Made by a program: the position numbers and the translations under genes. A stretch of DNA of 64,000 bases from Parvularculaceae bacterium. GTDB lineage: Bacteria > Pseudomonadota > Alphaproteobacteria > Caulobacterales > Parvularculaceae. Shown piece after piece: positions 5,650 through 31,907 of this stretch (position 1 is its first letter; each line of letters opens with the position of its first letter). Where the stretch lies: assembly GCA_021776475.1 (NCBI GenBank), contig JAJFFV010000005.1:186001-250000 (forward strand), written 5' to 3'. The notes under the pieces were generated by a model. That model did not search any database. It was not told where the DNA came from and saw only the letters and a list, made by a program, of their open reading frames with translations.

Positions 5650-6090
5650 ATGGAATATCTGCATACTATGGTCCGGGTTTCCGACCTCGCCGCGTCGCTC
5701 GATTTCTACTGCGACAAACTAGGGCTCGTCGAAGTAAACCGGACCGACCACGAACAGGGCCGATTCAGCCTTGTTTTTCTGTGTGCACCGAACGATCGAG
5801 ACCTCGCGGAGAAACGCGATGCACCACTGCTCGAGCTAACATACAACTGGGATCCAGAGGCCTATAATGGCGGTCGGAACTTCGGCCATCTGGCATTTCG
5901 GGTCGATAATATTCATGCGTTCTGCCAGACGCTGATGGACAAAGGGGTCAGCATAAACCGTCCGCCGCGCGACGGACGTATGGCATTTGTGCGCTCCCCT
6001 GATGGCATCTCAATCGAATTGCTGCAGCGCGGCAAAGCCCTTGCGCCAGCTGAGCCATGGGCCAGCATGGAAAATATTGGAATCTGGTAG
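5650..6090 (+). CDS. gloA: lactoylglutathione lyase / glyoxalase I
   Basis: A 146-residue VOC-fold metalloenzyme that would isomerise the methylglyoxal-glutathione hemithioacetal to lactoylglutathione. It has HTMVRVSDLAASLDFYCDKLG at the start, the LLELTYN strand with a metal-binding Glu, FGHLAFRVDN with the metal His near residue 79, and SPDGISIELLQ with the final Glu near 124. I chose ATG 5650, preceded by AACGGAG, rather than the in-frame GTG at 5641 that abuts that site. It stands alone between opposite-strand and unrelated genes. Confidence 0.88.
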   Translation: MEYLHTMVRVSDLAASLDFYCDKLGLVEVNRTDHEQGRFSLVFLCAPNDRDLAEKRDAPLLELTYNWDPEAYNGGRNFGHLAFRVDNIHAFCQTLMDKGVSINRPPRDGRMAFVRSPDGISIELLQRGKALAPAEPWASMENIGIW

Positions 6091-6283
6091 AATCACATCC
6101 ACGACATCCGGTCCCAGCGCCGCTGTGCCTTGACATAATCGCCTTGCTTTCAGCGGGGGAGCACCATATCTTTCGTTCATAAGTTGCGTGAGCGGTGATT
6201 GATTCTCCGGTGCGAATGGCGGGCGTGAAAACCGGGGGTGGGGACCACGCACCGCTTATGAGAGACATTTTGGGGGAAACAGT

Positions 6284-8107
6284 ATGCAAGTTAAGTTCTG
6301 GGGTACGCGCGGATCGATTGCCGCCTCCGGAAAAAGCACACTCAAATACGGTGGCAATACGTCCTGTGTCGAGGTGCGCTCCCAATCAGGTACGTTGGTC
6401 GTTATTGACTGCGGAACCGGTGCCTACCCGCTTGGCCAACAGCTGATCTCTGAGTTTAACGGCAAAATCAGCGGCCACATGTTGATCAGCCATACACACT
6501 GGGACCATATTCAGGGCTTCCCGTTTTTTACACCTTATTTCATTCCCGGCAACGAATGGCACATTTATGGCCCGAGCGGTTTTGGCCCTTCCCTCAACGA
6601 AGCGTTGTCTGATCAAATGCAGTACACGTATTTTCCTATTTCAATGGAGTATATGGCTGCGACATTGAACTTTCACGACCTGGTCGAAGGCTCGTTCAAG
6701 ATTGGTGATATTACTGTTCGTGCACGTTATCTGAACCACCCTGCCCTCACACTCGGCTATCGCCTCGAAGCAGACGGCGTTTCACTGGTGTATTCGTGCG
6801 ACCACGAACCACACTCTCATGCCTGCGCACTTGGCCACGGAAATATTACTGGCAATGATCTTGCTCACGCTGAATTTATGGCGGAAGCGGATCTTGTTAT
6901 CCATGATTCGCAGTACGTGGCAGACGAGTACGAGAAGAAAATCGGCTGGGGCCACAGTACATACGAATATGCGTACAAAATCAGTCAGTATGCAGAAGTC
7001 AAGAAACTTCTGTTTACCCACCACGACCCTACACGGAGCGACAAGCAGATTGATACGATCGTCAAGTCCGTGCAAAAACGCATGGGTGGCAAAGGCAAGA
7101 TGAAATCATTTGCCGCCTCTGAGGGCACAACGGTCAGCCTCAAAGGGAATTCGCTGACACACAAAATCAAGTCAATGTCAGTCAAGCCGGTCCGCGATTC
7201 AGAAGTCGATGCTTTCTCGCGCCCATTGACGGCGTTGATGACACACGCCGTTCTTCTCAATTTCGGATCGCCAGAGGAAATAAAAACGGTCACCGATATT
7301 CTCAAAACCGATTCCATTAAAATGATCATTGCCAAGAACACCGAAGATGTGATGCAGGCTATCGCTTCGCAGCCGGTCTCACTCCTTGTCGCCGATATGG
7401 ATCTCGGCCTGTTCCAGCTCGACAATGTGGTCTCTGAGATCAGAAAACGGGTGGATACGGGCGGCTCCGCCCTGCCGGTCATCGCCATTTCTTCGGAAGA
7501 GCGCGGCGAGGAAGTACGGCCGGAGGAATTACAAGACTGGATTATTAAGCCGTTTTCCATCGAATATTTGCGCACGCGCATTCGGGCTGCTTTGTTGCAA
7601 CAAGCTGGCAAATGGGTGCGTGCGCCGCTGCTTAAAGGCGAAGAAGCTCGCCTCAGCGAAATTCAGCGCTTCGGCCTGATGACCCGGAAGAACGAAGAAC
7701 GCTATGACCGGATCACCCGCCTGGTTTCGTCGTATTTCGATCTGCCGATTTCATTGATTACGGTTGTCGACCTGGAAACCCAGTTCTTCAAATCGAAAAT
7801 CGGCACACCGATCGATCAAACATCAAGAGATCAATCGTTTTGCGCCCATGCAATCATGAAGCGTGAGATAATGGTTGTGCCCGACACCTTGCAGGATGAC
7901 CGGTTTGCGGAGAATCCGATGGTCCTTGGGGAGCCGCAAATCCGTTTCTATGCGGGCGTGCCGATTTCCATGCCGAGCGGACACCATATCGGCACGTTGT
8001 GTATTCTCGATACCAAGCCGCGTGATCTAACCAACAAACAACTGGATGACCTTAAAGAATTTGCAGCGATGGTCGAAGCGGAGCTTGCCCGCGAAAAGCC
8101 ACTATAG
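6284..8107 (+). CDS. metallo-beta-lactamase + receiver + GAF fusion protein
   Basis: A 607-residue cytosolic multidomain protein. Residues 1-280 form a metallo-beta-lactamase domain with HTHWDH near residue 70, a distal HP metal ligand region and HSTYEYA/FTHHDP near 225-250, similar to Zn phosphodiesterases. Residues 310-430 resemble a response-regulator receiver: acidic VADMDLG as possible phospho-acceptor and WIIKPFS with the conserved Lys. Residues 455-605 form a GAF domain (QSFCAHAI, FYAGVPI, GTLCILD). No output HTH or GGDEF domain is present, so the enzyme domain is probably the regulated output. The substrate is unknown. ATG 6284 follows GGGGGAAACAGT. Confidence 0.85.
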   Translation: MQVKFWGTRGSIAASGKSTLKYGGNTSCVEVRSQSGTLVVIDCGTGAYPLGQQLISEFNGKISGHMLISHTHWDHIQGFPFFTPYFIPGNEWHIYGPSGFGPSLNEALSDQMQYTYFPISMEYMAATLNFHDLVEGSFKIGDITVRARYLNHPALTLGYRLEADGVSLVYSCDHEPHSHACALGHGNITGNDLAHAEFMAEADLVIHDSQYVADEYEKKIGWGHSTYEYAYKISQYAEVKKLLFTHHDPTRSDKQIDTIVKSVQKRMGGKGKMKSFAASEGTTVSLKGNSLTHKIKSMSVKPVRDSEVDAFSRPLTALMTHAVLLNFGSPEEIKTVTDILKTDSIKMIIAKNTEDVMQAIASQPVSLLVADMDLGLFQLDNVVSEIRKRVDTGGSALPVIAISSEERGEEVRPEELQDWIIKPFSIEYLRTRIRAALLQQAGKWVRAPLLKGEEARLSEIQRFGLMTRKNEERYDRITRLVSSYFDLPISLITVVDLETQFFKSKIGTPIDQTSRDQSFCAHAIMKREIMVVPDTLQDDRFAENPMVLGEPQIRFYAGVPISMPSGHHIGTLCILDTKPRDLTNKQLDDLKEFAAMVEAELAREKPL

Positions 8108-28772: not shown

Positions 28773-28901
28773 GCGGTCCCTCCTCTTTTTTTTGTCTGGA
28801 CACAGGAGCTTATGCTGGTTTCCCGAGGCTGGCAATTCAGCCGTGCGGCTTGCAAGGCGCTACTGGACCCCATACAGTACAAACCCCGGAGGGCCTTATT
28901 C

Positions 28902-29432
28902 GTGAAATATCTCGTTTTTTGCTGCGCAGCACCATTAGCCCTTATTGCTGGCACGGCCGCGGCGTTCCCGCCCGAGGCGCCAATGACGGCTCCTGGCGCT
29001 GATCAGCGCATTGCCGAGATACAAGAAGCCTTTTCGGTTTTCGACAAAAACGCCAATGGCACAGTCGTCATCGACGAGCTTGAAACTGTGTTGCGCTCGC
29101 TTGGCCAGGAACCGAGCGCTGCCGACCTTCAGCTTATGATGAGCCAGGCCGACATAGATGGCAATGCCGCCATTGATTTTCCCGAATTCAGCACCATGAT
29201 GGCAAAGCAACTGGACGACGCCGATCTCGAGCGGGAGATGGCCGGCGCCTTCAAGGTTTTCGACAGCGACGAGAACGGCTTTATCTCGGCCAGCGAGCTG
29301 GGCGCTGTAATGCTCCAGCTTGGTGAAAATCTGTCGTCGGAAGAACTGACGGAGATGATCAACGAAGCTGACGCCAGCGGCGATGATAAGATTAGCTTTG
29401 ACGAATTCGCCGCGATGATGGCGTCGGAGTAA
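28902..29432 (+). CDS. secreted calmodulin-like protein with four EF-hands
   Basis: A 176-residue protein starting at GTG 28902 behind GGAGGG. Residues 1-21 form a signal peptide (KYLVFCCAAPLALIAGTAAA). Four EF-hand loops follow in calmodulin spacing: residues 48-59, 84-95, 121-132 and 157-168; positions 1, 3, 5 and 12 carry oxygen ligands in each, but the position-6 glycine is lost in loops 2 (Ala89) and 4 (Asp162). The central linker and helix patterns (LRSLGQ, IDFPEF, FISASEL, MINEAD) match eukaryotic calmodulin far better than usual bacterial EF-hand proteins. It should bind calcium in the periplasm or outside. Adjacent FecR gene is convergent. Confidence 0.92.
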   Translation: MKYLVFCCAAPLALIAGTAAAFPPEAPMTAPGADQRIAEIQEAFSVFDKNANGTVVIDELETVLRSLGQEPSAADLQLMMSQADIDGNAAIDFPEFSTMMAKQLDDADLEREMAGAFKVFDSDENGFISASELGAVMLQLGENLSSEELTEMINEADASGDDKISFDEFAAMMASE

Positions 29433-29450: not shown

Positions 29451-30380
29451 CTAAAACGACTGGCCGCCTCCTTCTTCCTGATTGTTCGGGCATTCACCTG
29501 GGCATGGTTTGCCACCGGGGCCTCCTGGCGGCGCTGGTCGCCGAACGCCGCGAAGATCATCACCCGTTCTGGTAACGCGGCCAAGATCAGCCGGCGGGCG
29601 TGGTGGCCGCGGCAATCCGGCACCCTCCGCCCGCGAACCCAGATTGCCGGCAAACGCGAGAAATACGCTGTCGCGCAGTCGGAACGGCCCGATGATCCGA
29701 GCGCCCGAGCGGGGCACGAAAGCAGCGGTCCCTGCCTCCCACAAGGTCAGTTCATCACCGCCGGAATTGATGTAGGCAGCGCCGTCTTTGGTCACACCGG
29801 ACTGATCACGGCCTGGGCCGCGCAGCACCACAAGCGCCGCATCATCGCCAGCACCTTCCAGGGCTTCGGCAGAAACAAGGCCACTTTCGCGTGCCAGGGT
29901 CACTGCCACGTCACCCACCGCCAGATCTAGCATCGTGCCGCGCACGCCGAGGTAACCTGCCGGCGTATTAATCCGTACCGCATCAGTGTTGCGCGTGGCA
30001 ATCTTACCCGACATGAAACGAAAGGTTCCCTTCTGGATCGACGCGACGATCGATCCGGCCTGCGAAGAGGGGTCGTACACGAATTCATCAATCGTCATGT
30101 CGCAGTTCTCACCAACCGTGAAAACGGTTTCATCGTTGAGCAGGATCTGCAACGCGGCAGCCTCACCGCTGCTCACCTGGTCGCCAAGAAAAACCTGCTC
30201 AGCGGCGACCGCCGGACGGACGGCGTCATCACCGGCGCTTTGTAAGACCACCTCATTTCGGACAGCCGCGTTGACGCCGACATCGGTAAGCTGCGCCAAC
30301 GCTGGTGTGGTCATGACGAGGAAGGCAGCGAATGCTGCCAGCGGGATTTTGCCAGGTGCGGTTACGTATCTTATGCTCAT
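29451..30380 (-). CDS. FecR-domain secreted protein
   Basis: A 309-residue exported protein with a signal peptide (cleavage near PALAQL, about residue 29). A FecR-like domain spans about 40-150 (VFLGDQVSSGEAAALQILL, GTFRFMSGKI, INTPAGYLGVRGT). The C-terminal 60 residues are rich in Pro, Gly and Arg with two Cys in KPCPGECP, possibly surface exposed. It lacks a sigma-factor partner, so it is not the classic iron-signalling FecR. Start ATG overlaps the stop of the TPR/barrel gene upstream (ATGA), so the two proteins are made together. Confidence 0.82.
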   Translation of the reverse strand: MSIRYVTAPGKIPLAAFAAFLVMTTPALAQLTDVGVNAAVRNEVVLQSAGDDAVRPAVAAEQVFLGDQVSSGEAAALQILLNDETVFTVGENCDMTIDEFVYDPSSQAGSIVASIQKGTFRFMSGKIATRNTDAVRINTPAGYLGVRGTMLDLAVGDVAVTLARESGLVSAEALEGAGDDAALVVLRGPGRDQSGVTKDGAAYINSGGDELTLWEAGTAAFVPRSGARIIGPFRLRDSVFLAFAGNLGSRAEGAGLPRPPRPPADLGRVTRTGDDLRGVRRPAPPGGPGGKPCPGECPNNQEEGGGQSF

Positions 30381-31693
30381 TGACCGAACCCCCAAACAAA
30401 GCGGATATCCGCACCTGTGTTATCATACTCAAAGAATTGAGGATTGAACAAAGCATCGACATCCCGCCGCTCGTGATAAATCGATATTTCAGCGGTCACC
30501 GCCTCAAGCTGCTGCAGGGTCGGATCAGCGCCGCGGGCGACGAGCAGTCGCAAAGGTGTGCCAAGACTGGCTCTGACATAATGCAGATTTTCTGCGCGCT
30601 CCACGAAACCGCTATAATTTCGTTTCTGGTAGGCATAGTCAAAATCCGTATACACCCCTTTACCCCACTCTTTCGAGAAAGCAGCATCGGCGAGCCATCC
30701 GTCATATTCGAAAACCTGCTGATCGGCTGATCTGTCATAGACACCTATTGAAATCTGCCCTGAGTGATTGGGGTCAAATCTGTGACTGACGCCAATCGTC
30801 CCAGTTGTTTCCTGCCCGCTGCGTCCTGATTCACCAAAAGTCTGAAAACCATTGACGTTAATTTCGTCATAATCGAGATCTTCACGACGGACATTGACTT
30901 CAGCGGTCGTTTTGGCCGTCAAATCGCGTGACAGCATACCCTGAACGCCTAACCCGTTCACATATCGGTCACCGTCAACCAGTACGGTGCGCGCCGTCAC
31001 ATACGCGCCCCAGTCAAAACGGCCAGCCCCGCCTTCAACGCCGGCATCACCATACAACACCGCATAACTGAAATCGCTGAACTCAAAATACTGTTTGGTG
31101 AAAGCCTGCAAGCTCGCGACAAATGTCAGGTCGCGCGTCTCGCTCAAATCATTTTCAAACATCAGACTGCCGCTGACGATCGCGGCACCGTCTCCCTTGG
31201 CATTGAGAAAACCAAAAATGTCGCTCAATGTACCAAGCACTGTTTGATCATACCCGAGCCCAACAACGAGTTGCCCATCGACGCGTGACGTTTGACGCCT
31301 GCCGGATACCCGGTCGCGATAATACGCGTAGTCCGCAGCAGCAGAAGGTGACAAGGCCACCCCGTCCAAGGCCTCAAGTTGACGAGCGGCGGCCTGCAAA
31401 TCATCAAGTCGAAAAAGAACCACAGCATATAGCAGCCTCGCCTCATGCCAGCCAGGCTCGACCATCAGGATCCGTTCCAGCGCGGCGGCAGCGGAAAGAA
31501 GTTCTCCCTTGCCCGTTTGCTGCACTGCATAGTCATAGTTTAGGTCCGCATTGGCCGGATCGCGTAAGATATCGGTAAACTCAATTTCCTGGGCCTGTGC
31601 CAATGGCAGTGGCAAAAGCACCATCGCCATCGCTACCGCCAGCCATTGCAGAAGCCTTCCCGCGCATCTGGTTTTTGTCCTGGTCAATTTCAA
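30377..31693 (-). CDS. TPR protein with outer-membrane barrel region
   Basis: A 438-residue exported protein. TTG at 31693 is the likely start, seven bases after GGGGAGG, and gives a clean signal peptide (AMVLLPLPLAQAQE, to about residue 37). TPR-like helices fill about 40-140 (ANADLNYDYAVQQ, EARLLYAVVLFRL). From about 160 the chain is alternating beta-strand with aromatic ends (GLGYDQ, SADQQVFEYDG, FDYAYQKRNY) to the terminal RFVWGFGQ, as in outer-membrane barrels such as the surface-lipoprotein assembly modifiers. The Slam-like role is conjecture. Coupled to FecR gene downstream. Confidence 0.72.
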   Translation of the reverse strand: MKLTRTKTRCAGRLLQWLAVAMAMVLLPLPLAQAQEIEFTDILRDPANADLNYDYAVQQTGKGELLSAAAALERILMVEPGWHEARLLYAVVLFRLDDLQAAARQLEALDGVALSPSAAADYAYYRDRVSGRRQTSRVDGQLVVGLGYDQTVLGTLSDIFGFLNAKGDGAAIVSGSLMFENDLSETRDLTFVASLQAFTKQYFEFSDFSYAVLYGDAGVEGGAGRFDWGAYVTARTVLVDGDRYVNGLGVQGMLSRDLTAKTTAEVNVRREDLDYDEINVNGFQTFGESGRSGQETTGTIGVSHRFDPNHSGQISIGVYDRSADQQVFEYDGWLADAAFSKEWGKGVYTDFDYAYQKRNYSGFVERAENLHYVRASLGTPLRLLVARGADPTLQQLEAVTAEISIYHERRDVDALFNPQFFEYDNTGADIRFVWGFGQ

Positions 31694-31907
31694 CTTTTGT
31701 CCTCCCCTACCCGTCCCGAAGGATATTTTATCATCAAGGCTGGAAAACACCAGGGTTTGCAAGCACTTTGAGGATCTATTCCTCAGTATCGCGCCCACCG
31801 CCAGCAAGAGCGTTTGGTGGGTCGCGGCGCCGCGCGAGCGGAAGGGTACCTTGTTCACAAACCATCAGCAGGCTAGGATCAGAACAAACCTGCCAAAGGA
31901 AAGACCA

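Follow-up and report, generated by a model that had tools for sequence, protein, structure and literature searches.

A predicted exported calmodulin-like protein encoded on an alphaproteobacterial chromosome

Introduction

Several bacterial EF-hand proteins, among them calerythrin, CabC/CabD, and calsymin, have been called calmodulin-like (reviewed in PMC10574481), and deletion of CaBP (CCNA_02838), a Sec-exported periplasmic EF-hand protein of Caulobacter, affects stress adaptation (PMC13171946). Lanmodulin is a periplasmic four-EF-hand protein of alphaproteobacteria, and a proline at position 2 of the loops is a feature of its AM1 type (PMC9260416). Here we describe a gene in a 64,000-nucleotide stretch of a Parvularculaceae genome (assembly GCA_021776475.1, contig JAJFFV010000005.1, positions 186,001 to 250,000; hereafter the window) that encodes P0001, a 176-residue protein with a predicted signal peptide and four EF hands in the register of calmodulin (CaM), which senses calcium in eukaryotic cells. 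P0001 has the EF-hand motif and, in part, export in common with calerythrin, the Cab proteins, calsymin, and CaBP (PMC10574481, PMC13171946). By their descriptions, three of them differ from it: calerythrin belongs to the sarcoplasmic calcium-binding type, the EF-hand domains of calsymin number three, and CaBP has 133 residues and three predicted hands. P0001 also scores well below the cut-off of the XopAW type III effector model (NCBIfam NF041410; 57.8 bits vs. 120). To our knowledge, no stand-alone exported bacterial protein so similar to CaM has been described, UniProt and nr lying outside our comparison.

Results

Similarity to calmodulin

We compared P0001 with eukaryotic reference sequences. 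Those of human CaM, yeast CaM, cardiac troponin C, and centrin-2 were confirmed by PDB entries; those of the remaining CaMs, CALML5, and full calcineurin B are provisional. P0001 and human CaM are identical at 77 of 143 positions (54%) without a single gap, exactly the count that an earlier reading of the DNA (the original prediction) had reached by hand. Identity to typical CaMs of plants, ciliates, trypanosomes, apicomplexans, and green algae is 52-55%, and to yeast CaM 42%. The best matches in a phmmer search of all PDB chains are all eukaryotic CaMs, with E-values (about 1e-46) that exclude chance as the source of the likeness. In alignment score with human CaM, P0001 (409) ranks above cardiac troponin C (395), centrin-2 (385), and CALML5 (380).

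Identity to human CaM is the same inside the metal loops (26/48) and outside them (51/94). The N lobe of P0001 scores 228 against the CaM N lobe, compared with 127 against the CaM C lobe and 121 against its own C lobe. For the C lobe, the best score is with its CaM counterpart (174 vs. 152 with the N lobe). Seven of the nine target-binding methionines of CaM are identical in P0001, the other two (Met36 and Met76) being leucine, and hydrophobic character is retained at all 29 further positions checked. Because identity is equal in loop and non-loop residues, the match is lobe-specific, and the methionine and hydrophobic positions are kept, we conclude that P0001 shares the four-hand ancestor of CaM. 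We also counted CaM-only residues, defined as those that are invariant across six CaMs and that centrin, troponin C, and calcineurin B all lack (n = 23). P0001 has 10 of these, yeast CaM 16, CALML5 7, and three other exported bacterial proteins (L004, L005, and L006, described below) 4-6. These counts fit descent of P0001 from CaM, which they suggest but do not prove.

Set beside eukaryotic CaM (human CALM1, Chlamydomonas, and Drosophila; 52-55% identity), P0001 thus has the same four hands in gapless register over 143 residues, the same central-helix length, Met-rich target clefts, and a pI of about 4.05. It differs in its signal peptide, in changes to loops 1, 2, and 4, in the two Met-to-Leu replacements, and in being encoded by a bacterial gene.

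EF hands and structure model

Pfam finds four EF hands in P0001 (EF-hand_1 in four stretches; EF-hand_7, 101.8 bits). Together with the CaM alignment, this places four loops on the plus strand: loop 1, DKNANGTVVIDE, from residue 48 (29043-29078); loop 2, DIDGNAAIDFPE, from residue 84 (29151-29186); loop 3, DSDENGFISASE, from residue 121 (29262-29297); and loop 4, DASGDDKISFDE, from residue 157 (29370-29405). Their register is identical to that of the CaM loops, in agreement with the CaM spacing first proposed. Ligand positions are kept in all four, with D, N, or S at positions 1, 3, and 5 and E at position 12. Non-canonical residues occur at position 9 of loop 1 and at position 6 of loops 2 and 4, where the glycine reported missing is indeed replaced, by Ala in loop 2 and Asp in loop 4. 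Loop 1 has Asn at positions 3 and 5, loop 4 has Ser at position 3, and position 2 of loops 1-4 is K, I, S, and A. From its anatomy, P0001 would be expected to bind calcium at most or all loops and to present a CaM-like peptide-binding surface.

An AlphaFold2 model, computed from an alignment of P0001 with L004-L006, has an overall pLDDT of 74, with values of 83-89 across most of the EF hands and below 50 over residues 1-30, and a pTM of 0.42. The central helix (residues 93-120; 29178-29261, plus strand) is continuous in the model and, by the gapless alignment, as long as in CaM. All top Foldseek matches are CaM, with TM-scores up to 0.92 by target length and an rmsd of 1.4-2.1 Å; on calcium-bound crystals such as 1cll, 4cln, and 1ooj the rmsd is 1.5-2.0 Å. 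This match adds little independent weight because AlphaFold2 probably knows CaM, and the modeled orientation of the two lobes is unreliable.

Gene and export signal

The P0001 open reading frame (ORF) is intact on the plus strand (28902-29432), from a GTG start at 28902 to a TAA stop at 29430-29432. A ribosome-binding site, GGAGGG, can be read directly 8 bases upstream of the GTG (28888-28893, plus strand). The N-terminus, MKYLVFCCAAPLALIAGTAAA^FPPEA, was assessed by eye as a Sec-type signal peptide, as originally proposed: residues 1-21 (28902-28964, plus strand) comprise an n-region MK, a hydrophobic core, and A-A-A, with predicted cleavage at TAAA^FPPEA. This sequence pattern argues against a cytosolic location, unlike that of CaM as a cytosolic sensor. 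The mature protein would have 155 residues and a pI of 4.05; Cys, Trp, and Tyr are absent, and Met and Phe occur 10 times each. Codon usage (0.099) and GC3 (0.655) lie inside the range of the window's genes, so the gene is either a long resident of its host or codon-adapted.

Occurrence and neighborhood

A contig of 1.81 Mb carries the only copy of the P0001 gene in a 3.41-Mb genome with 99.5% completeness and 0.29% contamination. Our genome samples comprised one genome per species. The original prediction had raised the question of whether nearby genomes carry the gene at the same place; it is absent from all five congeners (sister species), and across the order only 1 of 299 genomes, its own, has a match at 1e-8. 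A search of 61 relatives gave just two weak, unrelated matches. In the class, 4 of 385 genomes have a match, the other three being L004 and L005 (both 34%) and L006 (39%); a profile search of the same 385 genomes added weak and partial matches only. With human CaM as query, P0001 was the sole match at E ≤ 1e-10 among 398 genomes of the phylum. We also scanned genome contigs with degenerate patterns derived from the CaM alignment, which confirmed at least two loci and is not a census. P0001 is truly chromosomal and rare. Its own genome encodes two further exported EF-hand proteins, L048 and L049, which are unlike CaM beyond the loops.

We considered a phage or plasmid origin for the gene and rejected it: plasmids and phages gave no P0001 match at 1e-5, viral contigs gave none with P0001 or two alignments as query, and PHROGs gave none.

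To the left of the gene, all five congeners keep the order ppdK-glyS-ORF-mtgA-DUF1761 wholly or largely, and none of them has a CaM gene beyond DUF1761. The right-hand neighbors, on the minus strand at 29451-31858 of the window, are a FecR-domain gene and a TPR/beta-barrel gene that overlaps it; the latter has a sub-threshold match to the surface lipoprotein assembly modifier family (PF04575). In three congeners this pair sits elsewhere, there too without CaM. With the left block kept and the right pair displaced, the place of the P0001 gene is a rearranged one. No neighbor shares its strand: DUF1761 is transcribed away from it and the FecR-domain gene toward it, an arrangement that indicates no operon or partner gene. 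No promoter match was found upstream.

Exported CaM-like proteins in other alphaproteobacteria

L004/L007 (JANQMY010000071.1), L005, and L006, from three other alphaproteobacteria, resemble P0001 in having an N-terminal export signal, four EF hands, and partly CaM-like text. L004 and L005 are 45-47% identical to human CaM and L006 33%. Their identity to P0001 is 33-39%, and 39% is the highest value among the bacterial EF-hand proteins found, compared with 54% between P0001 and CaM; P0001 is far closer to eukaryotic CaM than to any of them, which bears out part of the original prediction. Unlike P0001, L004 and L005 lack five residues of the CaM central linker, L006 has an altered C-terminal end and no CaM-type text, and the gene neighborhoods differ. 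In two related alphaproteobacteria, an exported CaM-like gene whose product is 45-47% identical to human CaM and has a short central linker lies between infC-type and pheS-type genes (L020, about 5.3-6.0 kb, minus strand; L021, 6049-6501, plus strand). L004 and L005 occupy this same place in two genomes and are therefore inherited.

A separate observation concerns a viral contig of 39,031 bases (L055; IMG/VR IMGVR_UViG_2872861354_000001), an Attoomivirus-like Streptomyces phage or prophage. It carries an intact CaM ORF (6001-6468, plus strand) that is 69-70% identical to human CaM and has a GC content of 55% in a locus of 65%. Endolysin and minor tail genes flank the ORF, which is on the opposite strand; the corresponding position in phage Attoomi contains just a small ORF. 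We found it on no second viral contig and in no phage record, and the contig is possibly chimeric. At 46% identity, this CaM is not closer to P0001; it represents a separate, independent occurrence of CaM on bacterial DNA.

Discussion

Origin of the gene

Transfer from a eukaryote, put forward in the original prediction, is in our view the best reading and a fairly probable one, although direction and donor are unproven. It is favored mainly because the distribution of the gene is patchy. More fully, we think it reasonably probable that P0001 is an exported calmodulin of eukaryotic lineage: a gene of the CaM lineage would have been transferred into an alphaproteobacterial lineage, where it would have acquired a Sec signal peptide and adapted its codon usage to that of the host.

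Several points weigh against this account. We built IQ-TREE trees from three row sets, including one of 21 rows and one of 14 rows after long-branch removal. The rows nearest to P0001 by path length are CaMs, and the forks around it are unsupported. Six clade tests did not separate the possible groupings, and none of the following is rejected: an all-bacterial clade with P0001 has a p-AU of 0.32, P0001 with L004 and L005 0.29, P0001 inside CaM, CALML5, and troponin C 0.26, and a eukaryotic clade without P0001 0.42, so that the trees leave the proposed transfer favored rather than shown. CaM evolves very slowly; any diverged sister or descendant will look nearest to it, and identity alone gives no direction. 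No donor lineage stands out, as P0001 is about as close (52-55%) to all typical CaMs. The gene bears no intron trace, mobile-element trace, or partner gene, and a lowered calcium affinity is read from loop sequence only.

The strongest alternative, which we consider unlikely but worth weighing, is that P0001 and L004-L006 belong to an ancient family of exported CaM-like proteins, rare in bacteria and lost from most lineages, that shares a bacterial ancestor with eukaryotic CaM and does not descend from it. Exported four-hand proteins do exist in the three other alphaproteobacteria, two of them inherited at one place, and such a clade is not rejected (p-AU 0.29-0.37). A bacterial origin of eukaryotic CaM, from cyanobacteria or actinobacteria, has been proposed (PMC7016017). 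Against this, pairwise alignment gives P0001 only 36-38% identity to L004-L006 vs. 54% to CaM, the shortened linker of L004 and L005 and the divergent text of L006 set them apart from it, and P0001 holds more CaM-only residues than any of the three. The family would also have to have been lost from nearly all sampled relatives. In a bolder version, which we regard as improbable, P0001 and these proteins are what remains of an alphaproteobacterial CaM family to which eukaryotic CaM is sister or from which it arose, so that CaM began as an exported bacterial protein.

It is very improbable that P0001 binds lanthanides or otherwise delivers metals in the manner of lanmodulin. Lanmodulin, too, is a periplasmic four-EF-hand protein of alphaproteobacteria (NF053806; PMC9260416), but P0001 reaches 16.1 bits where the NCBIfam model requires 135, lacks the AM1-type proline at position 2 in all of its loops, and spaces its hands as CaM does, not as lanmodulin does. 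Convergence, in which an ordinary bacterial EF-hand protein drifted toward CaM, had been named in the original prediction as the alternative to transfer. EF-hand loops are strongly constrained, and L048 and L049 supply other exported EF-hand proteins in the same genome; even so, we reject it, because identity is equal inside and outside the loops, the alignment runs gapless, and each lobe matches its own CaM counterpart best, whereas the likeness of L048 and L049 stops at the loops. Eukaryotic contamination or misassembly, suggested by so unusual a similarity, is refuted by the long and clean bacterial assembly, the bacterial ribosome-binding site and signal peptide, the host-like codon usage, and an identity of just 54% to any CaM.

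Proposed role and significance

Calcium is high (millimolar) in the periplasm and outside the cell. If P0001 is exported by the Sec pathway to the periplasm or beyond, its lobes would be calcium-loaded most of the time. Unaltered CaM would saturate at such concentrations, and the changes to loops 1, 2, and 4 suggest either a weaker affinity that fits a high-calcium compartment or simple relaxation of constraint. The Met-rich clefts may bind amphipathic helices of some exported partner; calcium buffering would be a simpler alternative. We favor, as a working view, a calcium-loaded clamp or buffer for exported proteins rather than a signaling switch, and P0001 may conceivably act on nearby eukaryotes. 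A stand-alone, exported, full-register CaM on a bacterial chromosome would offer a direct test of what CaM does without eukaryotic targets and where calcium is always high, and P0001 bears both on the passage of genes from eukaryotes into bacteria and on the origin of calmodulin.
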